Part shown: positions 1,064 through 19,674 of the stretch, piece by piece
Layout: the number at the start of each line of letters is the position of its first letter
Numbering within the stretch: position 1 is the stretch's first letter
Assembly (NCBI RefSeq): GCF_028748185.1
Contig: NZ_CP118164.1
Span: 5,295,814-5,359,813, forward strand
DNA length: 64,000 nucleotides
Source: Bremerella sp. P1
GTDB lineage: Bacteria > Planctomycetota > Planctomycetia > Pirellulales > Pirellulaceae
Direction: 5' to 3'
The notes under the pieces: model-generated
The model's database searches: none
What the model saw: the letters and a program-made list of their open reading frames with translations, nothing else
Told to the model about the DNA's origin: nothing
Position numbers and translations under genes: made by a program

Positions 1064-1552
1064 CTAAGTAGAAATGGCCTCTTCCTGATGGCAGGAAGAG
1101 GTTGTCTCGGGCGTCGTTTTTGACGCGGTTTCTTCCAGCTCTTCCATACGCAGGGCGATGCGATTGAATTGGTCTGCCATGTCCTGCCAGCTATCCCCAT
1201 CGCGTAGGATCAGTGGACCGGTTTTTTCTCCGTCGGCAAGTTGTTGCATCGCACGACGGAAGCGTACGACTGCTCCGACCAATTGATTGCTATGCCGTAT
1301 GGTGTCTACCAGGATGATCGGCAGCACCAATAGGCTTACCAAAACGGCTGGAACGAAGTAGTTCCACAGCATTTGTGATATGGCCGCGACAGGAGCATTC
1401 AGATCGCTAAGCGCTGCACCTAAAAGTAGAACCACACCGACACTCAAAAGGTAAGCAGCCCAGTGCATTATCGCGCGCAGGACGAGACGTCCTTGCAGGA
1501 TCGGATCTACCCAAAACAATCGGCGGCGTTGTTGCTTTACTTGCTTCGACAT
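1064..1552 (-). CDS. Two-TM protein with HAMP-like cytoplasmic segment
   Basis: 162 residues. Two hydrophobic segments (about 28-48 and 64-83) are followed by a segment that reads like a HAMP linker: Val/Arg-rich first helix, a G-x-x-G-P-L turn, then DSWQDMADQFN and an amphipathic second helix. No kinase, methyl-accepting or cyclase output follows. The preceding minus-strand gene encodes a DUF3365 haem lipoprotein; in many bacteria a DUF3365/Tll0287 sensor domain is fused directly to TM-HAMP, so these two genes may be a split version of that sensor (inference). GGGAG lies seven bases before the ATG. The family name is uncertain. Confidence 0.7.
   Translation of the reverse strand: MSKQVKQQRRRLFWVDPILQGRLVLRAIMHWAAYLLSVGVVLLLGAALSDLNAPVAAISQMLWNYFVPAVLVSLLVLPIILVDTIRHSNQLVGAVVRFRRAMQQLADGEKTGPLILRDGDSWQDMADQFNRIALRMEELEETASKTTPETTSSCHQEEAIST
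1078..1101. terminator. Hairpin between convergent genes, possible bidirectional terminator
   Basis: A perfect 10-bp stem (CCTCTTCCTG / CAGGAAGAGG) encloses an ATGG tetraloop. It sits 34 bp after the stop of the left-edge gene and inside the last codons of the minus-strand HAMP-like gene. Neither strand has a clean T-run after the stem, so an intrinsic terminator is only probable. Confidence 0.45.
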
Positions 1553-1705: not shown

Positions 1706-2314
1706 TTAGTCCAATGGAATCCGGACAACAACGCCGCCCATGACGTCCCCTTCTTTGAATTCCGGGTAATCGTCGCCACGATCGGAGTGATTGTTGTGGC
1801 AATCCCAGCAAGCTTTGGCGACGGCCTTATCGGCATATACGGCGGTGAAGTAGGTCTTGTCGCCTAGCTTTTCTTCGCCGTAGAAGTTTTCGTCGGGATG
1901 ATCAACGATGTACTTGAGGCCTTCGATTTCCTGCGGAGACTTTGGTTCGTTCTGTGGGTTCAATGGCCAGAGCGACTTCAAGGCATAAGAGAAGCCCGCT
2001 TCCTCGTTCCCATCGACGATCTCGGCGCCCATTCGAAACATCTGTGCTGGAAGCGGAATCGTCCCTTCTTCGTCTTGCCAATATTCGCTCGCGCTGACAT
2101 CGGCGCCTTGTTCTTTAAGGCGGGTCACGATGTGCTTGGCATAAACCGTACGGTCGGCCATCATCACCGCGTGCACGGCGTTGGCAAATTGCTTGGGCGT
2201 GATTCCACCCGCAGCTTCTACAGGTGCCGGCGTGCTGTTTCCGCAGCCCGTTAGTGCTGCTACGGTACCACCAATCACAATCAATCCACAGGCCAAAGCG
2301 ATAAACTTGTTCAT
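1706..2314 (-). CDS. DUF3365 (Tll0287-like) mono-haem c lipoprotein
   Basis: 202 residues. The N-terminus is a lipoprotein signal ending in LTGC. The rest matches the DUF3365/Tll0287-like layout: helical start (ITPKQFANAVHAVM), a PAS-like middle, and one c-type haem motif CWDCHN near residue 175, then a GDVMGGVVVRIPL ending typical of the family. Such domains are periplasmic, haem-binding and often the sensory part of signalling proteins. A GGGAG site lies seven bases before the ATG. It follows the multihaem cytochrome gene by 69 bp on the same strand and probably belongs to the same unit. It could be a redox or gas sensor or a small electron carrier. Confidence 0.82.
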   Translation of the reverse strand: MNKFIALACGLIVIGGTVAALTGCGNSTPAPVEAAGGITPKQFANAVHAVMMADRTVYAKHIVTRLKEQGADVSASEYWQDEEGTIPLPAQMFRMGAEIVDGNEEAGFSYALKSLWPLNPQNEPKSPQEIEGLKYIVDHPDENFYGEEKLGDKTYFTAVYADKAVAKACWDCHNNHSDRGDDYPEFKEGDVMGGVVVRIPLD

Positions 2315-2383: not shown

Positions 2384-3739
2384 TCATGGACGTCGCGATT
2401 TCCGCTCCTCGAACCATTTGCGAACCATCTCCGGGCTTTCGACCGACTGCTGCTGCGGAGCCGAGCTGAAGTTGCTTTCGATCTGGTGCGGGTCGTGCAT
2501 CGCATCGAGACTGTATTGAAGCCCGTGGCATTGCATGCAGACGCTACGGACCATTTTCTCGTTAGGTTGTAGATTGTCGTTTTGGTTGTGCTGGACTTTG
2601 ACCTTCGGGGCCTTGCTACTGCCATGCACTTCACGCGGCATGTGACAAGTCGCACACGACACGCCGCTGCCCGGCGGGAGGTCGCCGGCAAGCTCGTCCC
2701 GCCATAGCTGAGCATGAGGGGACTGCTGGTAGGCCAGCGTGTGTTCGTCGTTATGACACTTGATGCAAGAGTCGACTGCCGCAACACGCACATCCGCATC
2801 GTGCGGTGAATGACACGAACTGCACGTCAGTTCGGCATGCAGTGAAGAATGCTTCATGGGCAAACGTGCGCTACCAGGCGACATCGGTGAAAGTCCCTGG
2901 GCAAGTCGCATCCCATGCATGCCGGCAAGGAAGCCGCTCGCTTCATCTTCATGGCATTGCTGACACGTTTCATGCGACACGACGTTTTGCCACGTTTCCA
3001 GGTTCTGATCTTGGGTGTGACAGTCAGTGCAATTCACACCGACTTGCGCATGAACTGAGCCTGCCCACTCACGAATTAACTGCTCGTCTCGTTCGACGCT
3101 CGAATGAAACTTGGCATCTTTGGCCTTGAGCGGCTCAATGGGCTCTTCCTGGCTGGCCAGGTACCGGGCCAGAGCATTACGTTCTGGTACGACCTGCTCG
3201 GCCAAGTGGTCCGGCTGATCGAGGTTCTTGCCGAGGAAGTTCTCGTTGAGCGTGCGATTGTCGTGGTAGTTATGGCAGCCACTGGTTTGACAGGTGTTGA
3301 ATTCTAGATTCTTGTGGCTGGGACGCTCCTCAGCGATCTCTTGATGGCAATGGAAACAGAAGTCCTGAGGCAACGTGACACCCATCGGATGTGTTTCGTG
3401 CGGGACGTGCTCTTTGTGACAAGCGAGGCAGTTCTGGGCGTCCAGAATCGCAAGTCGCGGGGCGTTGGTCGGGTCGTTGAACTTGCTGGCCGGATGCGTA
3501 TCCAGGGCTTCCTTCAGTTCGTTCTCGTGACATTCGAGACATGATTTACTGGTGACGCCGAGTTCAGGGTCGTGACAGGCAGAACACTTCATTTCGATCT
3601 GGTAATGACCGTGCGTTGTCTTGCCAGGCAGGTACGTCTGCTTCAGTTTGCTGTCGTCAGACAACAGAACAACCCCCAGGCTACTTCCAACCAGTAGCGA
3701 CAGAGCCAACCAAACGAGGGCATAAATCCAGGAAGCCAT
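2384..3739 (-). CDS. Eleven-haem membrane-anchored or exported cytochrome c
   Basis: 451 residues. An uncleaved signal/anchor spans about residues 5-27. Ten CxxCH motifs (CSACH, CLECH, CLACH, CFHCH, CTDCH, CQQCH, CSSCH, CIKCH, CATCH, CMQCH) and one CX4CH (CQTSGCH) follow, so up to eleven c-haems in the periplasm. There is no CxxCK of the NrfA or octahaem type. The start codon lies four bases after the stop of the FAD/cytochrome-b fusion gene with no clear ribosome site, which suggests translational coupling. By position it should accept electrons from that membrane protein and pass them to, or itself reduce, a nitrogen compound; the reaction is inference. It resembles the doubled-CxxCH/cytochrome c3-like multihaem families rather than any single named enzyme. 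Confidence 0.88.
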   Translation of the reverse strand: MASWIYALVWLALSLLVGSSLGVVLLSDDSKLKQTYLPGKTTHGHYQIEMKCSACHDPELGVTSKSCLECHENELKEALDTHPASKFNDPTNAPRLAILDAQNCLACHKEHVPHETHPMGVTLPQDFCFHCHQEIAEERPSHKNLEFNTCQTSGCHNYHDNRTLNENFLGKNLDQPDHLAEQVVPERNALARYLASQEEPIEPLKAKDAKFHSSVERDEQLIREWAGSVHAQVGVNCTDCHTQDQNLETWQNVVSHETCQQCHEDEASGFLAGMHGMRLAQGLSPMSPGSARLPMKHSSLHAELTCSSCHSPHDADVRVAAVDSCIKCHNDEHTLAYQQSPHAQLWRDELAGDLPPGSGVSCATCHMPREVHGSSKAPKVKVQHNQNDNLQPNEKMVRSVCMQCHGLQYSLDAMHDPHQIESNFSSAPQQQSVESPEMVRKWFEERKSRRP

Positions 3740-3743
3740 GAAT

Positions 3744-5744
3744 TTAGAAGTAGTAGACCGTAATGATGTGAAACAGAAGCAATACCGGCAGCGGCCACGA
3801 CAGTATCAAGTGCAGCCAAACCAGACGCGGACGCCAGCGTCGAATCCAGATGCCAAGTGCTCCGGTAATGCGGTTCTCGAGTGAGACAAGCATCCCGGTG
3901 AGACTTCCAGTGAAGTTGACGACAACAAACGTTAGCGCCAACGCAAAGTTCAAGTTGGAACCAAAATGAAACCCGGTGTGCAGCACGAGACCCACGACCG
4001 CAAGTGTTGCCAGGACGGCATGGGCTACCCGCCACCAGGCAAAGTCCCCCCAGGTAATCCGCGAGATGCGTTTCCGTAGCGAAAAAGCCAAGCCTAGAGC
4101 GGTCAATCCAAAGATCGTATAGCCGGTGATTTGTTTGGGAGTTTCACTTCGCCACAGGGCATCAACGGTATGCCAGGTCGACTGAACCGAATCGGCGAAG
4201 GGGAGGGGGCCGATCGCGAGCATTGCGACAATGATCATCAAAGTCGCTACGCTGCTGGCAAGTAGAATCTGCCACGAAGCGGTCTTCGGAGGAAGATGAC
4301 GCTCACCGCAAAGTTGCCGTACAAGCGGACGGCACGTTCCACACACACTGGAGGCCCTGGTTAGCGTGGTCACCGCGGCAGCATCCGCTGCGCCGTCGCG
4401 AGTGGCCTCGCAAATCTGTCCTTTGGTGACACCAACGCAGCTGCAAATTACGGCGTTGTCGGGCCAGTCCCAGGGACTATTCAGCGTGTCTTCCGGCCAG
4501 AGTCGGCCGGTGCGGCGGAAGCGAGAAATTTGCCACGGCCACAGACGTCGCGCGTGCGTAATCAAATCGCGAACGCGATCGATCTCGTCCCACTCGCCGA
4601 CCGCGGTCGCACCGACGACGCAGTTACCCTCGAAAATGAGTTTGCGGTACGAATGTTCTGTGCTACTGGCAACGATGCGGGAGTTGGGTGTTTCGCCCAA
4701 AGCATCGCCGAGGGCCGCGACATCCACGCCCATTAACTTCAGCTTGGCCGATTGATCACCGTACAGGAACTCCTGCTTTTCGCCGCAGCAATTGGCGGCC
4801 AGCACGTCGGCCATTTGGATACCAGGGCCGACCAGTCCGTAATGCTTTTCTCGATGTACGGCACATTCGCCGATCGCGTAAATATGGGGATCGGACGTGC
4901 GAAGTTGGTCATTGACGACGACACCACCGCGATGGGCAATCTCAAGTTCCGCGTCGCGGGCCAGTTCATCCCGAGGAACGATGCCCGCCGAAATGATGAG
5001 CATATCGACGCGGAGCGTCTCGCTATTGGTGAAGTGCAACCGGAGACCCTCGCCGAAACGCTCGATTCGTTCACAACGACATAAGACATGCACATGCACG
5101 CCGAGTGATTCGACTCGCGATTTCAGTAGCGCTCCGCCAGCGGTATCGAGTTGACGAGGCATCAGGCTCGGAGCGACTTCCAGGACGTGGGCTTCGAGGC
5201 CTAGATCGAGAGCCGCCTTACCGGCTTCCAGCCCCAGCAGACCACCACCCATGATTGCGGCCGATCGGCAGTTCTCGGCATATGTGCGGATCTTTTGCAG
5301 ATCATCGAGGGTGCGATAGAGGAAGACGCCCGGTAGCTCCGCGCCTTCAATCGGCGGAACAAAAGGGCGACTACCGGTTGCCAGAACGAGACGATCGTAC
5401 GGGTAACGCTTTCCGTCTTGGCAAACGACCTCGCGATTGATGCGGTCTATCGCGTTGACTTTCTGCGAGGTCACCAGGTTCAGGCCGACCTGCTCGTACC
5501 AGGTCTTGGGCGAAAGGGTGAGGGAGGATTCTGTATCGCTGAATAGCTGAGTCAAGCGAACACGATCGTAGGCAGCGTATGGTTCCTCGCCGAAGATATC
5601 GACCTGCCATTCCTGCATCGCGCCGCGACGCACGAGCGACTGACAGAATGCGTGCCCTACCATGCCGTTACCCACGACTACCATCCGAGCGGCCTCGGTA
5701 GAGACCGACCTAGGGTTTTCGCTTTGTGTCTGTAACCTGTGCAC
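3744..5744 (-). CDS. NirB-like FAD/[2Fe-2S] oxidoreductase fused to a membrane cytochrome-b-like domain
   Basis: 666 residues, GTG start with AAGGAAAG upstream. Residues 20-300 are a pyridine-nucleotide-disulfide oxidoreductase fold: FAD site VVVGNGMVG near 22, ATGSRP, NAD(P) site IMGGGLLGLEAG near 165, and a second FAD motif ending IYAIGECA. This matches the N-terminal half of NirB/NasB. Residues 431-473 are a BFD-like [2Fe-2S] domain with Cys434, 436, 468 and 471. The sirohaem half of NirB is absent; instead residues 490-666 carry about five membrane helices with His575, 589, 593, 645 and 659, placed as b-haem ligands would be. Proposed flow: NAD(P)H, FAD, FeS, haem b, then the adjacent periplasmic multihaem cytochrome. 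It starts a unit with its own sigma-54 element. Confidence 0.85.
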   Translation of the reverse strand: MHRLQTQSENPRSVSTEAARMVVVGNGMVGHAFCQSLVRRGAMQEWQVDIFGEEPYAAYDRVRLTQLFSDTESSLTLSPKTWYEQVGLNLVTSQKVNAIDRINREVVCQDGKRYPYDRLVLATGSRPFVPPIEGAELPGVFLYRTLDDLQKIRTYAENCRSAAIMGGGLLGLEAGKAALDLGLEAHVLEVAPSLMPRQLDTAGGALLKSRVESLGVHVHVLCRCERIERFGEGLRLHFTNSETLRVDMLIISAGIVPRDELARDAELEIAHRGGVVVNDQLRTSDPHIYAIGECAVHREKHYGLVGPGIQMADVLAANCCGEKQEFLYGDQSAKLKLMGVDVAALGDALGETPNSRIVASSTEHSYRKLIFEGNCVVGATAVGEWDEIDRVRDLITHARRLWPWQISRFRRTGRLWPEDTLNSPWDWPDNAVICSCVGVTKGQICEATRDGAADAAAVTTLTRASSVCGTCRPLVRQLCGERHLPPKTASWQILLASSVATLMIIVAMLAIGPLPFADSVQSTWHTVDALWRSETPKQITGYTIFGLTALGLAFSLRKRISRITWGDFAWWRVAHAVLATLAVVGLVLHTGFHFGSNLNFALALTFVVVNFTGSLTGMLVSLENRITGALGIWIRRWRPRLVWLHLILSWPLPVLLLFHIITVYYF

Positions 5745-5972: not shown

Positions 5973-8198
5973 TTAAACGGTTTTCACGACGCGAACGGCC
6001 GCGTTCTTGTAAGAAGGCTGACGCGAATACGTATCGAATTGCGGGTAAGTCAACTGATTCGTTACCTCATTGTGCATCGGTAGAAAGACGTGTCCCGGTT
6101 GGACGCTCGAGGTAACATTGGCGCGGGCACGAATTTCACCGCGCGCCGACTGCACCGTGACCCAGTCGTGCGGTTCAATCATCAACGCCTCTGCATCTTC
6201 TGGGTGGATATCTACGAGCAGGGTCGTTGAATACAGCGTTCTCAGTACGGCTGACTTCGACGTCTTGGTTTGGGTATGCCACTGCGCTGCTGTTCCGCGG
6301 CCGGTCAGCAAACGCAACGGGAATTCCTCGTTGGGCACTTCGCCAGGAACTTCTGGCTGTTCGAAGATGAAGCGTGCTTTGCCGTCCTCGTGAAAGTATC
6401 GGCCATCTTCAAACAGGCGCCGCTGCGGCGCCGGCATCCAATCGTCACCGCTGCTTTCTTCTTGCTTGGTTGGCCACTGAATGCCGCGGGCGTCGTCCAG
6501 CATCCGATAGTCACGAATTCCGGTAATATCGCACGGCTGTCCCGCTGAGCACTTCTTCATTACCTGAAACACGTCTTCCGGCGTTTTCCAATCGGCAAAC
6601 ATCGAATCGCAGCCCCAGTAGTGAGACACCAGGCGGAAGATCTGGAAGTCGGCCAACGCTTCACCAGGAGCAGGCACTACTTTTTTGTGCAGTCCGTAGC
6701 GTCGCTCCGAGTTAATAAACGTTCCTTCCTTCTCGCCCCAGCCGGCCGCTGGCAAAAGGAGATCGGCAAGGACGGCTGTTTCGGTCGAGTGGTACATATC
6801 TTGAACGACCAGGAAGTCGAGCTTGTCGAGGGTTTCTTTCGCTTCCTTTTGATGAATCCAAGAGTGAGCCGGATTGGTCGCAATCACCCACAGACCGCGG
6901 ATTTCGCCGCGACGGATGCCTTCCATGATGGCGTCGTACGACCAACTGTTTTCGGTCGGGATATTGACCACGGGTATATCAAGGATGTCGGCAATCTTCT
7001 GTCGGTGTTCCGGCTTGGTGAAGTCGTGGCCACCGATCAGGTTGGTCGTGTTACTGAACAGACGCGAACCCATCGCGTTACATTGTCCCGTAATGCTGTT
7101 GGCACCGGTCCCTGGGCGGCCGATGTTGCCGGTCATCAAGGCCAGGTTGATGATGGCCTGAGCGGTGCGGACCCCTTGGTGGCTTTGGTTGACCCCCATG
7201 GTCCACCAGAAAGAAACCCGCTTGCCATCATGAATCGCCTGGATGACTTCCATGACGGCGGAGGGTTCGAGCCCGCAGTTGGTCAGGCTGTCTTCCAGCT
7301 TGTAACCTGCGACATGTTCTTTGAACTGATCGAAACCGTTGGTGTAATTGGCGATGTAGGATTCCTCGATCCAGCCTTTCTCGATCAGCACGTTGGCGAT
7401 CGTATACAGCAATGCCATGTCGGTTTTGGGACGCAGTGGCAAATGGTGCGTTGCCGCAACGGCCGTTTCCGTGCGGCGAGGATCGATCACGATGATCTTC
7501 GGATCGTGCGGATTGCGAAGGACCCGTTCCCACATGATCGGATGCGCGATGCAGAGATTGGATCCGACGAAAACGAGCACATCGGACTCTTCAAAGTCCG
7601 CATAGGTAAACGGAGGTGCATCGAAGCCGAAAGATTCCTTGTAGGAAACGACCGCGGTTGCCATGCATTGTCGCGTGTTGCCGTCGCCGTGCAGCATTCC
7701 CATGCCGAACTTGGCGAGCGAACCAAGGAAGAACATTTCTTCCGTCGCGATCTGTCCGGTGCTGAGGAAGGCGACCGAGTCGTTGCCATGCTTGGCTTGA
7801 ATGTCTTTGAAACGCGAGCAGAACGTCTTCATCGCCTCGTCCCACGAGACGGGAGCCAGCTTGCCGTCAGGCCCTTTCAGCAATGGTTGCGTGGCACGAT
7901 CATCGGCTTTGAGGATCGTGAGCGACTCCCAGCCTTTAGGGCACGCCATGCCGAGGTTCACAGGCCAGTCGACCGCTGGACTAAGATTGACCGCCTGGCC
8001 ATCCTTCAGGTGCAGTTCCAGGCCGCAGCCGGTCGAGCAGAAGCCACAGACCGAGGTGGTCGTGGCGTTGGGTTTCGAGCCGGCGGGAACTTTGCCGAGG
8101 CCATACTCTCCGGGATACAGCAGCAAGTCGCGTGTGAGGCTTCCATCCTTGGCATACATCAACTGTTGCAGCGGGTTAGTCCGCGTTGCGGTCGACAT
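5973..8198 (-). CDS. nasA: Assimilatory-type molybdopterin nitrate reductase, catalytic subunit
   Basis: 741 residues, with AGGAGG before the ATG. The N-terminus holds a [4Fe-4S] motif C-x2-C-x3-C-x27-C (CGFCSTGC ... CPKGW). The motif [13 protein letters not shown] gives a cysteine as the expected Mo ligand, as in NarB/NasA/NapA. The bis-MGD domains follow ([43 protein letters not shown]) and a C-terminal molydopterin dinucleotide-binding domain ([18 protein letters not shown]). There is no twin-arginine signal, so it works in the cytoplasm on nitrate brought in by the Nrt importer. The gene directly follows a DmsB-DmsC-like fusion, which suggests that electrons come from the quinone pool rather than from soluble ferredoxin (inference). 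An alternative substrate cannot be excluded, but the neighbours argue for nitrate. Confidence 0.93.
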
Positions 8199-8210: not shown

Positions 8211-9821
8211 TTACTTGGGTAAATTCGGCATGGCCGGGGTGGATTCAGCGGCAAAGTAAAGCCCGCGGTCAATCAGTTCGGCGGCAGCCAGGCTGGCCAA
8301 TGCTATCCCGGCACAAACGACGGAAGTGGGGCTTGCGAGGGCCATGGTTAATGCCGGTAAGACGATTCCACCGAGGATCCACAGGCCGACGCGTGCCAGG
8401 TGCCACGTTTTGAGCGGTCCGAGCAACAAGCGCGCCGAGCGGGCGATTGGATCGGTCGTCGGTCGCGATGCTTGCGAAAGGACTTGATATTCCAATGCCA
8501 AGCGTGCGATGGTTGCGGCGACGATAAGAGCCAAGCTGATAATCGACGGCGATTGACCGGCGAGTGCCGTCTCCAAATTCCAAACGGCCAGCCCCGATAG
8601 AACAATCGTAGTGCCGAACTTGCTAAAGGTAAGGGAAGACTGCCAGAACGGACGCTTCGTGACGATATAAATCATTGCGGAACAGAAGATCGTGATTGCT
8701 CCACCACCGATCGCCGCTAATGCCATCATCCCGCGAAATGGTTCCAGGAATGGAATGAAGTAGGAAGCGGTATAGCCTACAAGTGGGCCCGCGAAGGCTG
8801 GCATCAGGACCGCTTCGCGGCTGAGCCATGAAGTCCGCAAGCCGAGAAAGACTCGGAATCCATACATGGGGCGTCCGAGGTGAGCACCGGAGGCAGCGAG
8901 ACCTGCCATGGCGGCCATTGTTGCGAGCACGGCACTGACCATGCCGCCCATTCCCAACCACTGGCAAGCAGCACTGGCGATTAGCATGCCGAGTGCGGCC
9001 TGGGTAAGTGTGAGTAAACCGACCAGCGGTAGATGGGCATGGTTGGGAACGACTTCTTGGGCCCCGGCCGATACCATCTCGGCATCCAGGCGATACTTGC
9101 CTACATAACGCGTCGTGGGATTGGTGATTCTGGGATTCGCAGCCCCACGCAGGAAGTGTCCTTCTTGCGCTTCGCTGCGGATGCCTTCCTGGTCAACCAC
9201 GGTGATCTTGATGGCGCTGTTAGGACAGGACTGAACGCACGCTGGTGCTTCCCCTTCGGCCAGACGATGGCGGCACATGTCGCACTTGCGAACGATCCCT
9301 TTGGCCTCGCTGAACTTGGGGACGTCGTAGGGACACATCAGCGTGCAGTACTTGCAGCCGATGCATTGATCGTCGAGATGGACGACGATGCCCAGCTTGG
9401 GGTCTTTCTCATAGGCTTGAACGGGGCACCCCGACAGACAGCCTGGGTCGACACAGTGATGGCATGCGGTCGTCACGTGCTGCACGACCGGCTTGGATGG
9501 GATCGAGCTTTGCAGCGTACCGACACGTCGCCAGGTTTCGGATTCTTCGAGCCCGTTCATATTATGGCAGGCGACCACACATGCCTTGCAGCCGGAGCAG
9601 GCATCGAGATCGACCTCAAATGCGTACTGCTCGCCGGGACCGGGCTCAGTGAGCGGGATCAATTCGCGATAGGTCGGGGCCAACAAGGGATCGGCATGCT
9701 GATCGTGCCGCTGCGAGAATCGCTCGACCGCTGACAAGTCGCGTTGTTCGGACAACAACATTTCGACCAGATTGAATTCCGGTGCCGATTGTAACTCCGA
9801 GTTTTGTTCGCCGATGGCCAT
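8211..9821 (-). CDS. DmsB-like 4x[4Fe-4S] protein fused to a DmsC-type membrane anchor
   Basis: 536 residues. Residues about 70-210 contain four ferredoxin-type cysteine groups in the DmsB/NrfC arrangement (CSGCKACVVAC, CHHCVDPGCLSGCP, CIGCKYCTLMCP, CDMCRHR...CVQSCP). From about residue 255 on there are eight or nine membrane helices like the DmsC anchor (HLPLVGLLTLTQAALG, GAHLGRP, TSWLSREA). It lies 12 bp before nasA on the same strand. In DMSO-reductase-family complexes these two parts are separate subunits that move electrons from quinol to the molybdenum subunit. Here they are one chain with the FeS part on the same side as a cytoplasmic NasA. No signal peptide is seen. Confidence 0.88.
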   Translation of the reverse strand: MAIGEQNSELQSAPEFNLVEMLLSEQRDLSAVERFSQRHDQHADPLLAPTYRELIPLTEPGPGEQYAFEVDLDACSGCKACVVACHNMNGLEESETWRRVGTLQSSIPSKPVVQHVTTACHHCVDPGCLSGCPVQAYEKDPKLGIVVHLDDQCIGCKYCTLMCPYDVPKFSEAKGIVRKCDMCRHRLAEGEAPACVQSCPNSAIKITVVDQEGIRSEAQEGHFLRGAANPRITNPTTRYVGKYRLDAEMVSAGAQEVVPNHAHLPLVGLLTLTQAALGMLIASAACQWLGMGGMVSAVLATMAAMAGLAASGAHLGRPMYGFRVFLGLRTSWLSREAVLMPAFAGPLVGYTASYFIPFLEPFRGMMALAAIGGGAITIFCSAMIYIVTKRPFWQSSLTFSKFGTTIVLSGLAVWNLETALAGQSPSIISLALIVAATIARLALEYQVLSQASRPTTDPIARSARLLLGPLKTWHLARVGLWILGGIVLPALTMALASPTSVVCAGIALASLAAAELIDRGLYFAAESTPAMPNLPK

Positions 9822-9836
9822 GCGAATTCCGTTGAC

Positions 9837-10700
9837 TTAGCCAAAGAGTGTGAGAACTTGGACCAATCGATCGCCGTTGAATATTGGCAGTGCCAAGGCA
9901 AAGCGGGCACCCTGATCGAATAGCGGTACCAGCGATGCGTCATCCTCGGCGCTATGCATCATAACGGGAATCCGTGACGCATAGCATTGGCCAACGATGC
10001 CTTCGCCGTAGCTGACGGTCGCCCGCTGTGGCGAGGAAATACCAACGGCATAGCTGGATTGCACAAGACTGAGTTCGGTTTGGTCTTCGCTCGGCAGCCA
10101 TGTTTCCATGGCCTGTTGAAACGGGAAGTCAGCCGTACTCAGGATCACCAGCACGCATTCCAGTTCGTGCTCAGTGGCCATGATGGGAATGCCCAGGCCG
10201 TAGCGTAAGCCTTCCTTGCGAGCACCGGCGGCTCGCATGAATGCCTTTGCTTGATCAATGCGAGCAATGATACGCGACTTGCGATCGTCCCAGGTCTCGC
10301 CAGGCAGGCCAGACCCACGTGGGAACTTAACGTAAGGGCTGATCGTCTCGAAGTGAGCGAGACCACGGTAAGCCGAGTCCGCGAGTCCCAGTTCATCGCG
10401 TTCAGTTCGCGACCAGCGTTCCAAGCCAATTTTGCAATCGTCCGATGCATGAACAGTAAACAGGATCGCAGCAACGACTTCGTTGGTGATCAAAATCGGC
10501 AAGGCGATTTCAATTGTGCTGTCGTCGACGCTACGAATGGCCGAACGTCGCTCGTTGATCGATACCTGAATCAAATCATGGGTTGGCGGACCTTCCGGAG
10601 CAGCTGGGTAGCCGCAAGCAGGTGCTAGTTGTCCGGCATTTTCGTTATGAATCCAAACCGAAACGCTGGTCAACACCGAGGGTGCGATCGTTGTCGTCAT
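9837..10700 (-). CDS. GAF-domain protein in the nitrate operon
   Basis: 287 residues with what looks like two GAF modules: roughly 5-150 (hydrophobic core IALPILITNEVVAAILFTV, then PYVKFPRGSGLPGETW) and 155-287 (LRYGLGIPIM, GEGIVGQCYASRIPVMM, FALALPIFNGDRLVQVLTLFG). GAF domains bind small ligands or transmit signals. No DNA-binding, kinase or cyclase part is present, so it must act through a partner or as a metabolite sensor. It lies 24 bp after nrtD and 15 bp before the DmsBC fusion, so it is co-transcribed with transport and reduction genes. A role in tuning the pathway is inference. Confidence 0.8.
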   Translation of the reverse strand: MTTTIAPSVLTSVSVWIHNENAGQLAPACGYPAAPEGPPTHDLIQVSINERRSAIRSVDDSTIEIALPILITNEVVAAILFTVHASDDCKIGLERWSRTERDELGLADSAYRGLAHFETISPYVKFPRGSGLPGETWDDRKSRIIARIDQAKAFMRAAGARKEGLRYGLGIPIMATEHELECVLVILSTADFPFQQAMETWLPSEDQTELSLVQSSYAVGISSPQRATVSYGEGIVGQCYASRIPVMMHSAEDDASLVPLFDQGARFALALPIFNGDRLVQVLTLFG

Positions 10701-10724
10701 GTCCTTTTTGTGCCTCGTTGAAAG

Positions 10725-11627
10725 TTAAGCGTTGGCCGTAACCTTTTCGGATGCCGGTGAGTTTTCGTCGTCCGTCAGAGTTACCGTAAGTTGCGGTGCT
10801 GGCTCTTCAGGCTCCTCAGACTTTGGCTTGTGGTGCTTGTGACGTTCTTGTTCTTCCAGGAAGGAGACAAGAGAACCACGCAGTTCGTAGTAGAGCGGAT
10901 GCTCAAGGGTTTCAGCGCGATTGCGCGGACGCGGCAAAGGAAGTTCCAGAACCTGGCCAACCTTGGCATTGGGACCGTTGGTCATCATGCAGATGCGGTC
11001 GGCCATGTAGATTGCTTCGTCGACGTCGTGTGTGACGAGCATCGTCGTGATCTTTTCTTTATCGAGGATGCCCAGGATAACGTCCTGCAGTTCCATTCGT
11101 GTCAGCGAATCGAGTCGGCCAAAGGGTTCGTCCAGGAGCAACATATTGGGCTTGAGGGCAATCGCTCGGGCGATACCAACACGCTGCTGCATACCACCGG
11201 ACATTTCTCGTGGGTACTTATCCATCGAGTCGGCCAGACCAACAACGCTCAAATAGTATTCGCAGATCTGACGACGCTCAGCGCGGCTTGCGTGCGGGTA
11301 GACACGATCGACCCCCATTCGCACGTTTTGCATGGCCGTCATCCAGGGAAGCAAGCACGGAGCCTGGAACACCACGCTTCGATCCGGACCAGGTCCCGAG
11401 ATTTCCTTGCCGGCCACGACCACGCTACCGGAAGTGATCGGGTTGAGGCCCGACACCATCGTCAATACGGTCGACTTCCCGCAGCCAGAGTGACCGATCA
11501 GGCTGACAACTTCACCCTTTTTCAGGATCAGGTTGAAGCCGTCGACCACTTTCACATCGTCGCCGAACGGATTGGGGTACGCCTTGACGAGGCGGTACAT
11601 TTCGACGAAGCGGTTCTCTTGTGACAT
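10725..11627 (-). CDS. nrtD: Nitrate/nitrite ABC importer ATPase, NrtD-type
   Basis: 300 residues. Walker [11 protein letters not shown]-loop [11 protein letters not shown], signature [14 protein letters not shown], Walker [10 protein letters not shown] and H-loop LVTHDVDEA are all intact. It is of the taurine/nitrate/sulfonate importer class. The C-terminal 50 residues are a charged, proline/glutamate-rich tail not needed for ATPase function. It lies 20 bp after the other ATPase gene and starts with AAGGA before the ATG. Two different ATPase subunits beside one permease and one binding protein fit the NrtC/NrtD heterodimer plan. Confidence 0.9.
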
Positions 11628-11647
11628 GACGTTTCCTTAGGTGAACG

Positions 11648-12493
11648 TTAAGCGACGCCGATACGAATAGGCTCGACATCGGGAAGGACCACATCCGAAG
11701 CGACACGAAGCTGCTTTGCCTCTTCGTTGATGCCCATCATGTAGCGTGTGATCTCATTGCGGAGCTTCTTGAACTCTGGATTGAAGTTCAGAGTCGCTCG
11801 ATCGCGAGGTCGGTCGAGGGTGACCGGAAACTCACGACCCAACTTGGCCGAAGGTCCAGGTGTCAGCGGAACGATGCGGTCGGCCATCAGCACGGCTTCG
11901 TCCACGTCGTTGGTGACCATCACCACCGTGCGGCGGTCTTCTTCCCACAGGCGGATGATTTCGTCTTGCAGAACGCTTCGCGTGAGAGCATCCAAGGCGC
12001 TCAACGGCTCGTCCAGCAGAAGCACTTCTGGCTGCATCGACAGCGTTCGTGCTAACGACAATCGCTGTCGCATCCCGCCAGACAGTTCCGAAGGACGCTT
12101 GCCTTCACTTCCGGTCAGGCTGACCATGTCGATGTAGTGCTGGACATAGTCACGTCGCTCGCCCCGTTTCAACTTGGGGAAAACTTGCTTCACGGCCAGT
12201 TCGATGTTGCCATGAACGGTCAGCCAGGGAAGCAGTGAATAATTCTGGAAAACGATTCCACGATCAGGACCCGGCCCCTTCATTTGCTTACCTTTGAAGC
12301 GGGCTGCCCCTTCATCAGGCATAAGGAGCCCTGCCAGCAGGGAAATCAAAGTCGACTTCCCGCTGCCAGAGAATCCAATGATCGCGACGAATTCATTTTC
12401 GTTAACCGTCAGGTTGGCTTCTTCAAGCACCGTGTATCGGCGGTGTGATTCACCAAACCCGACGGTTGCGTTATCTAGTTCGAGGATTGCCAT
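11648..12493 (-). CDS. nrtC: Nitrate/nitrite ABC importer ATPase, NrtC-type lacking the extra binding domain
   Basis: 281 residues from the ATG at 12493, chosen because AAGGA lies nine bases upstream and it begins the conserved MAILEL strand; an upstream ATG at 12529 would add 12 residues. Walker [11 protein letters not shown]-loop [11 protein letters not shown], signature [14 protein letters not shown] and Walker [10 protein letters not shown] are intact. At the H-loop the sequence reads [10 protein letters not shown], with Asn instead of the usual His; that histidine normally contacts the gamma-phosphate, so this half-site may be catalytically weak and rely on NrtD. Cyanobacterial NrtC carries an extra C-terminal substrate-binding domain, which is absent here. 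Confidence 0.88.
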
Positions 12494-12532
12494 GTGGCGT
12501 TTTCCTTTAGGTGTGACGTTGGCAATCATGGA

Positions 12533-14236
12533 TTACAGGGCGGTTGGGGCACCATCGAAGCTGACCATCCGTTGGAAGACGATCATGATTCGATCAAGCA
12601 ATAGCCCAATTACACCCACAAAACCACAGGCAACGAACATCTGGGCGAACGTGGCCGACGAACCGTTGTTAAACATGTCCCACACAAACTTCCCGAGCCC
12701 AGGGCTACTGGAAAGAAGTTCCGCGGCGATCAGCACCATCCAGCCCACCCCGAGCGAGATTCGCAGGCCCGTAAAAATAAGGGGCAGGGCGGAAGGGATA
12801 ATGATCTTGGTCAAGCGATCCCATAGGCCGAGACGCAAAACCCGCGCCACATTCAGGTGATCCTGGTCGATTGCCGAGACACCCAATGCCGTATTCACCA
12901 GCGTGGGCCACAGCGAGCAAAGTGCCACGGTGATCGCCGAACTGAGGAAAGACGGTTGAATCCATGCTTCGTCGGGGCGGGTAATGAAAGCCCCCACGAT
13001 GAAGAACACAATTGGCAGCCAGACAATCGGTGATACTGGTTTGAAAAGCGAGATCAGCGGAGTCATCGATGCCATGAACACACGGCTCATACCACAGAAA
13101 ACGCCGATCGGGATGGCGATGGCCGTGGCGATGAAGAAACCGGTGAACACACACTTGAGGCTCGTCCAGATCTGATCGAAGAAGGTCGGCGGCTTGGCGA
13201 ACTCGGAACCGGCGATTGTCTTGATGCGTTCTTCACGCTGAATCAGTTGCTGAGCCAATGTGAACATTTCAGGTCCGCTGGCCGTGGCGTACTTGCGTTT
13301 CAGGTCTTCCATGTCGGACGATGCCTTGGCGACCTTCTGCTCGCGGTTGCCCTCGGTCAGCAAATTAACGCGAGTCTTCAGGAACTCGGCCTTCTGCCCA
13401 GTGGCACTGATCTGCTGTCTCAGCGATTCCACCTCCGGCAGCGATTTGCCGCGTCGCTCGGAAAGTTCCGATCGCAGTGACTTGAGATGTTCGTTCTCTT
13501 CGCCGGTCTTTTCCATGTGCTGGTTGACCAGGGAAACGTAATCGATCTTTTGCTTGTAGTCGTCGGCTGAAATCTTATCGGCCATGGCTACCAATGCCTT
13601 GGCACGCGTTTGCTGGTCTTGCTTGTAGGTCTGTTCCTGCTGGGTTACGGCAACCGACAGCTTGGACAGGCTGGCCGAGACAAACTCGGCCGAAACGCCT
13701 TCGACGAAAGCGAACTTTCGGCGAGCGGCGTCGGTTGCCGACGCCTCGGAAGCTGCCAGTTCGTCGTTAAGCTTCTTCCAGTCGCCTTCGATCTTCGCCT
13801 TCTCGGCGGTGGCTTCGGCTGGAATCATTGTTAGCAGCTTGTTGAGAAGCTCTTCGCTTTGCTGACTGATGGCTTCCCAGTCAGAGTCCAGCGACTTGAT
13901 TTCCTCCTGAGTGGCGGCGAGGGCTTTCTCTCGACCTTCACCCGATTCGTTGTAGTCGCTGACCTTGGTGTATTCGCGATTGTGGAAATCAGCGATGCCG
14001 TCGTACGCCTTGACCACCTGGCCAGGCGTGGGGACCTCGCCGGCACGCGTCTTAATGCGAGGGCCAATTTGGTCCCAAGCAACCACACAGGCAACCATTA
14101 CTAAAATAGGAATGGCAATGTAGAGGCCAATCTGTTTCAACTGCTGCTTCGGGTCTTCGCCGTAGCACAGCAGCACGACCGGCTCGAATACTCGAAGCCC
14201 GGCGACGTCCAGAATGCGGATGATTTTGTACTTCAT
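12533..14236 (-). CDS. nrtB: Nitrate/nitrite ABC importer permease with a large coiled-coil insertion
   Basis: 567 residues, about twice the usual NrtB length. One helix (36-55) and the segment [11 protein letters not shown] (68-78) match the usual N-terminus. The usual next helix ([24 protein letters not shown]) only comes at about 358. Between them lie some 270 residues rich in Glu, Lys, Gln and Ala with heptad-like pattern, almost certainly a long coiled coil. By topology this should be periplasmic, between TM1 and TM2 (inference). The C-terminal half is an ordinary binding-protein-dependent permease domain with an EAA-type loop near [23 protein letters not shown]. It is 107 bp from nrtA with a hairpin in the gap. 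Confidence 0.9.
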
Positions 14237-14263
14237 GCGAATCTTTCGTACGGTTTGTTCGGT

Positions 14264-14339
14264 GTAGTGGGTATTGCTGGCATAGTGGTAACGGGCCGGA
14301 GGTGGCTTCCGCCTGCGCCTCCCCCGGCCACCCCACTAC
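14264..14339 (-). ncRNA. Intercistronic stem-loop between nrtA and nrtB
   Basis: Outer arms GTAGTGGG (14264-14271) and CCCACTAC (14332-14339) are perfectly complementary, and an inner GC-rich stem joins GGCCGGAGG (14294-14302) with the CCTCCCCCGGCC segment (14318-14329). It fills most of the gap. Such structures after binding-protein genes often stop 3' decay or cause partial termination, giving more binding protein than permease. That role is inferred, not shown. Confidence 0.6.
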
Positions 14340-14343
14340 GCGG

Positions 14344-15837
14344 TTAGTTATCTTTGTTACCAATAGAGTGGGAATTGAGATAACCAATCGGATCGTGGCC
14401 GTCGTAAACGACCCCGTCGATGAAGTCACCCTTTTCCGTCGGCGGCTTGTAGCCGTCGGTGTCTTTGGCCGGGATTTCGTCTTCGGTCATCTGACCCGCA
14501 GCCACTAAGGTTGCCGCAGCTTTGCGATAGATGTCAGGACGATAGATCTTCTTGGCCGTTTCGTCGTACCACTCGGCCGACTTCGGTTCGGTAATCTGTC
14601 CCCAGCGTCGCATTTGCGTCAGGAACCAGACGCCGTCGCTGTACCACGGATACGTGCAGTGGTACTTAAAGAAGACATTGAAGTCGGGCATCGGACGCTT
14701 GTCCGACTTCTGGAAGTAGAAGAAGCCGGTCATCGAATTTTTGATGACGTCGTAGTCAGCACCCACGTAATTTGGCTTGGCCAGGATGCGGCAGGCCTCC
14801 TCGCGATTGACCAGCTTGCCACTCTCGTCTGTTTCATCCAACCACTTGCCGGCACGGATCAAAGCTTTGACCACGGCGATGTGGGTGTTGGGGTTTTCGT
14901 CGTTCCAACGCTTGGTAACGCCAAACACCTTTTCTGGGTTGTTCTTCCAGACGTCGTAGTTGGTAGTAACCGGAACACCGATCCCCTTGGCGACTGCTTG
15001 CTGGTTCCAAGGTTCACCGACGCAGTAGCCTTGGATGTTGCCGGCTTCCAAGACGGTAGGCATCATCGGTGGCGGCGTGACCGAAAGCAGAACGTCAGCA
15101 TTCGTTTCGCCAACCGTGTCGGTTTCGGTGTACATGCCAGGGTGGATGCCAGAGGCGGCGAGCCAGTAACGCAGTTCGTAGTTATGCGTCGAAACGGGGA
15201 AGACCATACCCATCTTCAGCGGCGTGCCGCTGGCTTTGTATTCGTCGACCACGGGGCGAAGCGAATCGGCCGAAATCGGGTGAGGTGGGGTCGGGCTCTT
15301 CAGCTTCGCATCGTTCTCCTGCATCTTTTGCCAGATGTTGTTCGATACGGTGATGCCGTTTCCATTCAAGTCCATGGTGAACGCAGTAATGATGTGGGCC
15401 TCGGTTCCGATGCCGATGGTGGCAGCGATTGGCTGGCCCGACAGCATGTGAGCTCCGTCCAATTCACCGTTGATCACGCGGTCCAGCAGCGTCTTCCAGT
15501 TTGGCTGGGCTTCCACATCAACTTGCAGGCCTTCATCGGCGAAGAAACCTTTCTCTTTCGCGATTACCAGCGGGGCACAGTCGGTTAACTTGATAAAGCC
15601 CAGCTTCAGGTTGTTCTTTTCTGGGGCGGCAACCGTGGCCACCATTTCAGGTTCAGTCGTTTTGGGGGCATCTTCCGACGTGCCAGCCTCGGGTTCGACG
15701 GTGGCCGCGAGGGCACTGAGATCTAATTCGTCCAGGCTAGGGCCAGTCGGTTTCGATTCGGAGCAGCCTACCAATAAAGCGACTGCGAGCAGTCCGGCTG
15801 CGAGTGCGTTGCGATTCCAAAGTCCGGTCCAGTTCAT
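14344..15837 (-). CDS. nrtA: Nitrate/nitrite ABC importer binding lipoprotein
   Basis: 497 residues. A lipoprotein signal ends in LLVGC, followed by a flexible Pro/Glu/Thr-rich linker to about residue 75. The mature part matches the NrtA/SsuA-like binding fold: [30 protein letters not shown], the [13 protein letters not shown] segment, and [16 protein letters not shown], all familiar from cyanobacterial NrtA. The long C-terminus (about 350-497) with [20 protein letters not shown] is also NrtA-like. It would capture nitrate or nitrite in the periplasm and deliver it to NrtB. It is the first gene of the main operon, 103 bases after the predicted sigma-54 start site, with AGGAA before the ATG. 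Confidence 0.93.
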
Positions 15838-16106: not shown

Positions 16107-16300
16107 GGACACATCTGGCGCGCGGTCATTCTGGTGCCACCTGCGGACACAGGATGCTCAACCCCACCACCAAAGGAACGTATTTCCATCATCCTGCCCA
16201 AATCCCCTGAAGAACCGCGAATAAAGAGGACGAACATGTGCAATACCCCACGAAACGGACTGACCTGCGGATTGAACCCTCGTTGAAGGAACAACGACCC

Positions 16301-17896: not shown

Positions 17897-17927
17897 GAAT
17901 TCGGAATAAATTTAGAGATGACTCTTG

Positions 17928-17961
17928 AAAGGGATGGCGATCAGTTCGCCATCCCTTTTTT
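17928..17961 (+). terminator. Intrinsic terminator after the beta-barrel gene
   Basis: A perfect 13-bp stem (AAAGGGATGGCGA / TCGCCATCCCTTT) with a 5-base loop is followed by a run of T, 31 bp after the stop codon. A strong intrinsic terminator. Confidence 0.9.
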
Positions 17962-18108
17962 CGTGCTTAAAAAGGTCGCACGCATCGCGTAAGAAATTGG
18001 GCACTGCGGGAAATTATACATTGGCGGCACAAATGTGCGTTTCGTAAGTTGTTTGTCAGAAAGTAGATGAGATGTGCCTGTGGTGATCACTAATGCCGCT
18101 GGTACATG

Positions 18109-18122
18109 AGTTGCATGCAACT
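18109..18122. promoter_or_regulatory. 14-bp palindrome upstream of the NtrC-like gene
   Basis: AGTTGCATGCAACT is perfectly self-complementary and lies 60 bp before the TTG start of the regulator gene, in a 286-bp gap (17897-18182). A second small dyad, GCACA-AA-TGTGC, lies at 18027-18038. Either could be an autoregulatory operator; both are supported by symmetry only. Confidence 0.35.
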
Positions 18123-18182
18123 GAGGTAGCTGCTGAGTTGGATGGGCGGAACCTCTCTATTTACATTTGATGCTGCAACAAA

Positions 18183-19670: not shown

Positions 19671-19674
19671 TTTC

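Follow-up and report, generated by a model that had tools for sequence, protein, structure and literature searches.

To our knowledge, direct routes from NADH to periplasmic multihaem cytochromes have rarely been described. Dihaem membrane domains of the NOX pattern have two helices, each with a pair of histidines spaced 14 residues apart. For nitrate assimilation, a related arrangement is the narK-bjgb-flp-nasC cluster of Bradyrhizobium. The published account (PMC4724949) states that Bjgb and Flp, encoded together with NasC, protect against nitric oxide (NO), that Flp is needed for growth on nitrate and not on nitrite, and that Flp, described as typical of cytoplasmic oxidoreductases, is the proposed electron donor to NasC. 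For Tll0287-type proteins, another report (PMC12889525) indicates that about half of the domains are fused to signalling outputs, that a signalling-fused protein bound NO tightly, and that NO binding by a stand-alone protein, judged to be redox-like, was weak.

We analysed a block of genes in a 64,000-nt stretch of the Bremerella sp. P1 genome (hereafter, the window; Table 1). Our preferred reading, which we regard as plausible while stopping short of calling it probable, is that their products form a transmembrane NADH:cytochrome c oxidoreductase for the management of a nitrogen oxide, most likely NO, during nitrate assimilation. The anatomy of a predicted haem wire leading from NADH to the periplasm is well supported, and domains, candidate ligands, gene linkage and co-occurrence with nitrate assimilation could be demonstrated at the level of sequence. 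Among the literature matches listed, no title or abstract start described this module, most subscription journals lying outside the search.

Table 1. Features of the block and of the adjoining nitrate-assimilation genes, in positions of the window.
Feature	Position	Strand	Size or residues	Description
Gene 1	3744..5744	minus	666 aa, GTG start	NirB N-half/[2Fe-2S]/cytochrome b fusion; from ORF, domains and homologues
FAD/NAD(P)H-binding domain of gene 1	4848..5687	minus	residues 20-299	Pyr_redox_2, 177.7 bits
BFD-type [2Fe-2S] domain of gene 1	4311..4451	minus	residues 432-478	C434, C436, C468, C471
Cytochrome b domain of gene 1	3747..4277	minus	residues 490-666	putative bis-His pairs H575/H645 and H589/H659
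Gene 2	2384..3739	minus	451 aa	membrane-anchored undecahaem cytochrome c
Gene 3	1706..2314	minus		Tll0287-like (DUF3365, sCache_heme) monohaem c protein; PF11845, 67.7 bits
Small membrane protein	1064..1552	minus		HAMP/PilJ-like, weak match below cut-offs; last gene of the block
Nitrate reductase, assimilatory, NasA/NasC-like	5973..8198	minus		context; no NCBIfam cut-off reached
Fe-S/DmsC fusion	8211..9821	minus		context; likely quinol-linked donor to NasA
GAF protein and nitrate ABC transporter nrtD, nrtC, nrtB, nrtA	9837..15837	minus		context; named by gene order except 10725-11627

Results

Genomes and conserved unit

The gene 1 fusion was counted in 44 genomes of the family, against 197 others, and 20 genomes gave weak matches only; the family genomes are related and co-occurrence was counted by hand, so Fisher and binomial values computed from these counts exaggerate how independent the samples are. 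A phylum-wide homologue search sampled 392 genomes. The 40 distinct related loci compared below came from 36 of the 43 other fusion-bearing family genomes (G517, G535, G537, G541, G542, G591 and G596 were left out), three loci elsewhere in the phylum, outside this family, and a single contig from Verrucomicrobia; L041 and L042 were dropped as duplicates of L028 and L092.

Genes 1, 2 and 3 were adjacent in all 40 related loci. The co-occurrence of genes 1 and 2, proposed as a check in the first-pass annotation, was thus borne out, and the system described there as a pair is a conserved unit of at least three genes. It was found in two phyla, Planctomycetota and Verrucomicrobia, the latter represented by the single contig.

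Gene 1

Gene 1 aligned with the first 465 of the 794 positions in the NirB model TIGR02374 and scored 446 bits, under the cut-off of 578.35, and is therefore not a NirB. A profile scan placed Pyr_redox_2, Rubredoxin_C and Fer2_BFD above their cut-offs; the sirohaem half was absent, with PF01077 (NIR_SIR) and PF03460 unmatched at E 0.1. Across 41 aligned sequences, G166, G167, G168 and G171 were kept in 40 (one gap), and residue 189 was Glu in 39, Asp in one and a gap in one. By rule, an acidic residue at such a nucleotide-binding position goes with a preference for NADH, which suggests that gene 1 uses NADH. The cysteines C434, C436, C468 and C471 were kept in 40, 41, 41 and 41 of the 41 sequences, respectively, the one exception being L088, a broken gene aligned as its open piece.

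The first-pass annotation had described a NirB half, a [2Fe-2S] domain and a five-helix domain with five suitably placed histidines. This architecture stood; the count of histidines did not, as only four were conserved. H575, H589, H645 and H659 were present in all 41 sequences and, as candidate ligands, fit two bis-His b haems, in which H575/H645 would be the cytoplasmic-side pair and H589/H659 the periplasmic-side pair. The fifth histidine, H525, was rejected as a ligand (12 of 41 sequences). In the predicted structure, the last 191 residues formed an all-helical bundle (pLDDT 90.5), and the model and hydropathy taken together suggest five hydrophobic membrane helices. Loops 2 and 4 of this domain were rich in Lys/Arg; the segment ahead of the first helix, expected to be cytoplasmic, was Lys/Arg-poor (0.93).

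Searches with the cytochrome b domain returned little. Against the PDB, its profile gave 0 matches at E 10 and its single sequence gave one, at E 0.7. A fold search with the model gave 203 matches at E ≤ 10 and none at E ≤ 0.001; DUOX1 and SpNOX ranked fourth and fifth (E 0.65 and 0.71, not significant). PF01794 was unmatched by gene 1 at E 0.1 and was matched weakly, below cut-off, by two stand-alone cytochrome b relatives. In a FastTree tree of 40 fusion heads, 7 NirB heads from one genus only and 2 outgroups, with one broken fusion gene dropped, the fusions did not form a single clade (the two nodes listed had support of 0.891 and 0.782).

Gene 2

The two open reading frames of the first-pass annotation were confirmed in place, both on the minus strand and 4 bases apart, as was its account of gene 2 as a cytochrome with ten CxxCH motifs and one CX4CH, at residue 150; a predicted N-terminal helix (residues 2-26) would anchor it in the membrane. 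In 2000 composition shuffles, the mean number of CxxCH was 0.09 and the maximum three. All but one of the 40 homologues had 11 haem sites, the exception being L043 with 10. We considered the CX4CH as a special catalytic site and rejected this; the homologue L094 has 11 CxxCH and no CX4CH, which makes this motif an ordinary haem site. Twelve extra histidines were conserved for the 11 haems, and 10 for the 10-haem homologue L043. As these numbers roughly follow the number of haems, no open catalytic haem is evident. CxxCK was absent from gene 2 of the window.

The best PDB matches of the gene 2 profile were octahaem nitrite reductase and NrfA. With a model of medium quality (pLDDT 72.9), the top four fold matches were hydroxylamine oxidoreductases (Foldseek; best E 0.0063, TM 0.31, none at E ≤ 0.001). 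PF02335 (NrfA) was unmatched at E 0.1, and hhalign with the family NrfA aligned only 74 columns, a local likeness around the haem motifs. The score to TIGR03508, the DmsE decahaem family, was 54.9 bits, below the cut-off of 192.2.

Taken with the conserved Cys and His residues and the loop charges of gene 1, the anchor helix of gene 2 fits the path from cytoplasmic NAD(H) to periplasmic haems that the first-pass annotation had implied.

Nitrite reductases

As had been noted, the window holds no sirohaem nitrite reductase: the three NIR_SIR matches of the genome, a single contig, all lie outside. Elsewhere in this genome lie genes for NrfHA, for a sulfite reductase of the CysI type and for a full-length NirBD, which scored 1076 bits against TIGR02374. 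NirB or NirA was present in 41 of the 44 family genomes with the fusion, and on the verrucomicrobial contig the unit adjoins NirA. The proposal that the pair serves as nitrite reductase for want of another therefore falls, and we rejected replacement of nitrite reductase as the main reading. The full-length NirBD is also the first half of what had been named as refuting that proposal, a sirohaem enzyme elsewhere with the pair dispensable.

NrfA was found in 31 of 44 genomes with the fusion versus 46 of 197 without it. It was missing at E 1e-30 from 13 of the 44, three of them 99% complete (G394, G542 and G601). For this reason, electron supply to NrfA was not favoured; it is still conceivable, since NrfA is commoner where the fusion occurs.

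The 11-haem cytochrome might itself be a periplasmic reductase of nitrite or hydroxylamine that draws on NADH electrons, in keeping with its distant likeness, in profile and fold, to NrfA, HAO and octahaem nitrite reductase. We consider this quite unlikely: most genomes with the fusion already have NirB or NirA (41 of 44) and NrfA (31 of 44), CxxCK is lacking, the conserved extra histidines are about as many as the haems (12 for 11 haems, 10 for 10 in L043), and the likeness to NrfA is confined to the surroundings of the haem motifs.

Gene 3 and the small membrane protein

PF11845 was matched by all 38 gene 3 family sequences scanned, the window's among them; three truncated sequences were omitted, and in L078 and L095 the contig ends within the Tll0287 gene. 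The gene 3 product is probably a lipoprotein, with the lipobox Cys in 38 of 41 sequences. The CXXCH (C169, C172, H173) was present in 40 of 41. No cysteines other than these were conserved in the family, which makes the Cys/His ligation reported for Tll0287 unlikely here. The gene 3 profile gave 0 PDB matches at E 0.01. The small HAMP/PilJ-like gene was found in only three of the 40 related loci (L025-L027), with no match in L107, L108 or L109, and its place in the haem-wire system is uncertain.

These two genes bear on a role in redox or NO sensing, in which the haem chain would control how reduced the Tll0287-type protein is and the signal would pass through another membrane protein. The fusion of about half of such domains to signalling outputs, according to the report cited above (PMC12889525), and the HAMP-like gene that follows in the window's clade are compatible with it. 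Gene 3 products stand alone, however, the HAMP-like gene occurs in three of 40 related loci only, and an 11-haem cytochrome would be a costly sensor input; we regard sensing as very improbable.

Globin

A single-domain globin was encoded beside the unit in 33 of the 40 related loci and, by coordinates, within 3.5 kb of the fusion in 35 of the 44 family genomes. Y28, Q49, H81 and Y91 were present in all 33 sequences; from their spacing, we take them to be the B10/E7/F8/G5 positions of Hmp. Position 131, where Glu is expected, was Glu in eight and Asp in 10 of the 33. The window genome gave no globin match at E 0.01, and the globin was also absent from the three closest relatives with the block; it therefore cannot be required for the system. 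Where it is encoded with the unit, as in most relatives, the flavo-Fe-S head could also reduce it.

Nitrate-assimilation genes

The transporter gene at 10725-11627 scored above the TIGR01184 cut-off. Of the family genomes, 41 of the 44 that carry the fusion had NasA and three did not, compared with 60 of the 197 genomes that lack the fusion. NasA lay within 20 kb of the fusion in 16 of the 41 genomes, and in four genomes the block stood directly downstream of NasA. An Fe-S/DmsC partner adjoined NasA in all 15 nas loci compared. Within the window's genus, three of seven collinear nas operons were without the block and otherwise whole.

The flavo-Fe-S head might pass NADH electrons to NasA, with the membrane haems exchanging electrons with the periplasm. 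Its position downstream of NasA in four genomes, the presence of NasA in 41 of the 44 and the requirement for Bradyrhizobium Flp on nitrate and not nitrite, as reported (PMC4724949), all speak for this. We nevertheless hold it unlikely, because all 15 nas loci compared pair NasA with an Fe-S/DmsC partner, the whole nas operon stands without the block in three genomes of the genus, and NasA and the fusion each occur without the other (60 of 197 and three of 44 genomes, respectively).

A gene for Alginate_exp (PF13372), an outer-membrane barrel, was found in 14 of the 40 loci and in none of the stretches examined at the other 26. In 13 of the 14 it lay on the other strand, and it occurred mainly where nrt genes are near; for these reasons it seems to belong to the nas locus. 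The same facts weigh on a role as electron sink or in extracellular electron transfer, whereby surplus NADH would be oxidized and the wire would carry its electrons out to metals or other external acceptors. Such a barrel could be the outer-membrane partner, and the same cytochrome b domain stands alone just before multihaem genes at L037-L040. With the barrel gene not shown in 26 of 40 loci and, where present, tied by strand and position to the nrt genes, we find this role decidedly improbable.

Discussion

Under the preferred reading, NADH would reduce the FAD of the NirB-derived head. By way of the [2Fe-2S] cluster, the electrons would reach a stacked pair of bis-His b haems, which would hand them on, outside the inner membrane, to the Tll0287-type protein and the anchored 11-haem cytochrome. 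Where a globin is encoded, the flavo-Fe-S head could also reduce this cytoplasmic protein with its Hmp-like pocket. We infer this topology, the bis-His pairing, the direction of electron flow and the reduction of the globin from the predicted parts.

The neighbouring genes suggest NO rather than replacement of a nitrite reductase, and NO would be the substrate or ligand. We also count in favour of this reading the Hmp-like globin pocket, the frequency of NasA alongside the fusion, the Bradyrhizobium precedent, the tight NO binding of a signalling-fused Tll0287-type protein, and the gene 2 matches to nitrite reductases and hydroxylamine oxidoreductases. Among the matches listed for the window genome, its four COX1-family proteins match oxidases and no NO reductase model appears.

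Several observations run against the preferred reading: the window's clade is free of globin, gene 3 stands alone, as does the Tll0287-type protein that bound NO weakly, the gene 1 segment ahead of the first membrane helix is Lys/Arg-poor, position 131 of the globin is Glu in only eight of 33, and three of 44 genomes lack NasA. Gene 2 shows no evident open haem, and the fold matches are not significant. Gene neighbourhood by itself does not show the substrate.

A bolder form of the NO reading, possible and in our view rather doubtful, is an unrecognized NO-handling complex of Planctomycetota and Verrucomicrobia, built from a NirB-derived NADH head, a ferric-reductase-like dihaem domain and an 11-haem wire. 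It would reduce NO or another N-oxide in the periplasm and, in genomes with the globin, turn NO into nitrate in the cytoplasm, in one circuit of assimilation and recycling.

In the locus described here, the parts of an NADH-to-multihaem route are explicit, conserved in sequence and, in two phyla, tied to nitrate assimilation. Should the NO reading hold, the module offers a testable account of NO handling in nitrate-assimilating planctomycetes such as the window's, which shows neither a globin nor a haem-copper NO reductase, and adds to the Bradyrhizobium example a design that spans the membrane. Otherwise, the module is still a case of half a NirB reused as an electron-input head.

Comparison with Known Systems

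Gene 1 resembles the NADH nitrite reductase NirB/NasD in its FAD, NAD(P)H and BFD [2Fe-2S] domains, over the 465 N-terminal model positions, and differs in that a cytochrome b replaces the sirohaem half. With Bjgb, Flp and NasC of Bradyrhizobium, the system shares an NAD(P)H flavoprotein and a nitrate reductase in one locus, and a globin in 33 of 40 related loci. Unlike Flp, which we compared by description, the gene 1 head bears a cytochrome b and is joined by an 11-haem cytochrome and a Tll0287-type protein; unlike in the Bjgb system, a globin is missing from the window's own clade.

The cytochrome b of gene 1 is like that of NOX and ferric reductases in that each of two helices bears two histidines at a spacing of 14, whereas its flavoprotein part is of NirB type. 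Gene 3 is like DUF3365/Tll0287 (sCache_heme) proteins in its PF11845 match and CXXCH, and is a stand-alone protein; the Cys/His ligation reported for Tll0287 itself is unlikely in gene 3. The planctomycete sets of cytochrome b and multihaem c genes at L037-L040 share the same four histidines in four aligned stand-alone cytochromes b, which are followed by genes with at least 6, 5, 6 and 11 CxxCH, respectively. In contrast to gene 1, their cytochrome b is a separate gene, and no NirB half lies upstream in the three sets scanned, where the upstream proteins are an Fe-S protein with a weak cNMP domain, a cNMP/Fe-S protein and a thioredoxin-reductase-like flavoprotein.

Architecture of the fusion and its partner cytochrome

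The fusion protein of gene 1 matched positions 1–465 of the 794 of NirB (446 bits, not reaching the cut-off of 578.35). Pyr_redox_2, Rubredoxin_C, and Fer2_BFD domains were identified and no sirohaem domain was found at E 0.1, in line with the first-pass annotation, which had described a NirB half without the sirohaem part. The last 191 residues were predicted to form an all-helical bundle (pLDDT 90.5, model built from 41 sequences). Five histidines had been proposed for this domain; four of them (H575, H589, H645, and H659) were conserved in 41/41 sequences, that of the window included, but the fifth, H525, was present in 12 only. H575 and H589 are 14 residues apart, as are H645 and H659, and we infer bis-His pairing of H575 with H645 and of H589 with H659. 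Lys and Arg were concentrated in loops 2 and 4 of the membrane domain (means 4.27 and 4.95), with loops 1 and 3 poor in both (1.90 and 0.76). A cytoplasmic flavin head would be expected to give this charge pattern, although the stretch immediately before the first membrane helix is Lys/Arg-poor (0.93).

The haem count proposed earlier for gene 2 was recovered exactly: 10 CxxCH motifs and one CX4CH. Eleven haem sites were retained in 39 of 40 homologues (ten in L043); the L094 homologue has 11 CxxCH and lacks CX4CH. A further 12 histidines were conserved in 40 or 41 of 41 sequences, approximately one candidate distal ligand per haem, which makes gene 2 look like a wire. Its full-length model was of medium quality (pLDDT 72.9, poorest at approximately residues 38–162); the N-terminal helix was modelled confidently and is probably a membrane anchor.

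The proposed anatomy holds up, and it extends beyond two genes. When 40 distinct related loci were compared for gene content, a Tll0287-type c-haem gene accompanied the pair in all 40, and a single-domain globin accompanied these three genes in 33. The Tll0287-type gene is broken in L088, and in L078 and L095 it runs past a contig end. The order was pair, Tll0287, globin in 30 of the 33 and Tll0287, globin, pair in three (L085, L100, and L101). No globin was seen in L025, L026, L027, L078, L095, or L102, L078 and L095 being short contigs. By coordinates, the globin lay ≤3.5 kb from the fusion in 35 of the 44 fusion-bearing genomes of the family. The best PDB matches of its profile were 3wfw, 3s1i, and 3ubc, which we take to be Hell's Gate globins, followed by neuroglobin and Vitreoscilla haemoglobin. 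Tyr28, Gln49, His81, and Tyr91 were invariant (33/33); at position 131, where Glu is expected, Glu was found in eight sequences and Asp in 10. A globin search of the window's own genome gave no match. Because the window's clade lacks the globin, the three-gene core must act in some way by itself.

Where the globin normally lies, L091 (genome G394) has only a short fragment of 38 aligned residues, which resembles the remnant of a decayed gene. In L088 (genome G589), both gene 1 and gene 3 occur as two separate open frames, reflecting a broken copy or sequencing errors.

Stand-alone cytochromes b were reached from five weak matches of the phylum search (L036–L040). The four that were aligned share the four histidines of gene 1, and each is followed by a multihaem c gene that extends past the stretch examined (at least six, five, six, and 11 CxxCH in L037, L038, L039, and L040, respectively). 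Of four cytochromes b scanned against Pfam, two had no match at E 0.01 and two had sub-threshold matches only. The upstream proteins, scanned for three, were an Fe-S protein with a sub-threshold cNMP domain (L037), a cNMP/Fe-S protein (L039), and a thioredoxin-reductase-like flavoprotein (L040). These four-His proteins form an unnamed family beside multihaem c genes with varied cytoplasmic input proteins, and gene 1 thus belongs to a broader cytochrome b/multihaem c theme in which the input heads are exchangeable.

Genomic context and distribution

Features of the locus in the window, minus-strand genes in order of transcription; several gene names were inferred from this order
Feature	Position	Strand	Remark
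nrtA, nrtB, nrtC, nrtD		-	
GAF-domain protein	9837-10700	-	perhaps regulatory
Fe-S/DmsC fusion	8211-9821	-	
NasA-type nitrate reductase	5973-8198	-	
Gene 1 (fusion)	3744-5744	-	
Gene 2 (multihaem cytochrome c)	2384-3739	-	
Gene 3 (Tll0287-like)	1706-2314	-	
Small HAMP-like membrane protein		-	
Alginate_exp-family gene	16238-17896	+	PF13372, 267.6 bits
The preceding gene with the sigma-54-type response regulator and PilJ-domain hybrid sensor kinase that follow it	16238-21933	+	consecutive; may be the nas locus's porin for nitrate and its regulators

The Fe-S/DmsC fusion and the assimilatory nitrate reductase were neighbours in 15/15 nas loci compared, a pairing under which quinol would be a likelier donor to the reductase than NADH or ferredoxin. 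The Alginate_exp-family gene was present in 14 of 40 related loci, mainly where nrt genes were near, and may belong merely to the nas locus rather than being an outer-membrane partner of the haem system. In 14/15 nas loci, nrtD and the Fe-S/DmsC gene flanked the GAF-domain protein, which was not seen in L121.

With a cytochrome b profile match at E < 1e-40 taken as presence, 44 of 241 genomes of the family carry the fusion, as do seven of 392 genomes sampled across the phylum. NasA (E ≤ 1e-100) was detected in 41 of the 44 fusion-bearing family genomes versus 60 of the 197 others, the three without a match being G452, G510, and G518; it lay within 20 kb of the fusion in 16 of the 41 genomes having both. 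Members of the window's genus differ in whether they carry the block: it lies downstream of NasA in G000, G003, G006, and G007, and is absent from G001, G004, and G008, where the genes are collinear as far as NasA. G005 carries the unit with a globin approximately 75 kb from NasA, and neither NasA nor the fusion was found in G002. One strand of a verrucomicrobial contig carries, in order and with a few other open frames interspersed, nrtABCD, the pair, the Tll0287 gene, a globin, NirA, and the Fe-S/DmsC gene; NasA had no match in the examined part of this contig.

Nitrite reductases and a possible role in NO handling

The first-pass annotation had seen no sirohaem nitrite reductase in the window and had suggested that the pair may reduce nitrite or another nitrogen oxide, or serve as an electron sink. 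The window's genome (a single contig of 6.96 Mb, 99.7% complete) encodes NirBD (1004 aa; TIGR02374 1076 bits, NirD 117 bits), a CysI-type sulfite reductase, and NrfHA, and NirB including the sirohaem half, or NirA, was found in 41 of 44 fusion-bearing family genomes. The pair as a substitute for nitrite reductase, and its proposed nitrite role, are thus without support. Neither protein was found in G510, G518, or G598 (83%, 93%, and 85% complete, respectively). NrfA was present in 31/44 family genomes with the fusion versus 46/197 without.

All 30 NrfA sequences examined from the family (L004, L122–L150) have five CxxCH and no CxxCK, and their catalytic haem is thus probably of the CxxCH type.

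In the mechanism we propose, NADH would reduce the FAD of gene 1 and then its [2Fe-2S] cluster, from which electrons would pass to the two b haems, on to the eleven c haems of gene 2, and then to the Tll0287-type protein, the chain serving NO or other reactive nitrogen formed in nitrate assimilation. The NO role is our best-supported guess, and a tentative one, a little short of probable. Four COX1-family proteins are encoded in the window's genome (one CtaD over the cut-off, two CtaD-like under it, and one cbb3 oxidase); none of them matched an NO reductase model at E 1e-40. PMC12889525 describes tight NO retention by a signalling-fused Tll0287-type protein and weak NO binding by a stand-alone one, so this evidence points both ways. 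The nearest tested precedent is the Bradyrhizobium Bjgb/Flp/NasC system (PMC4724949).
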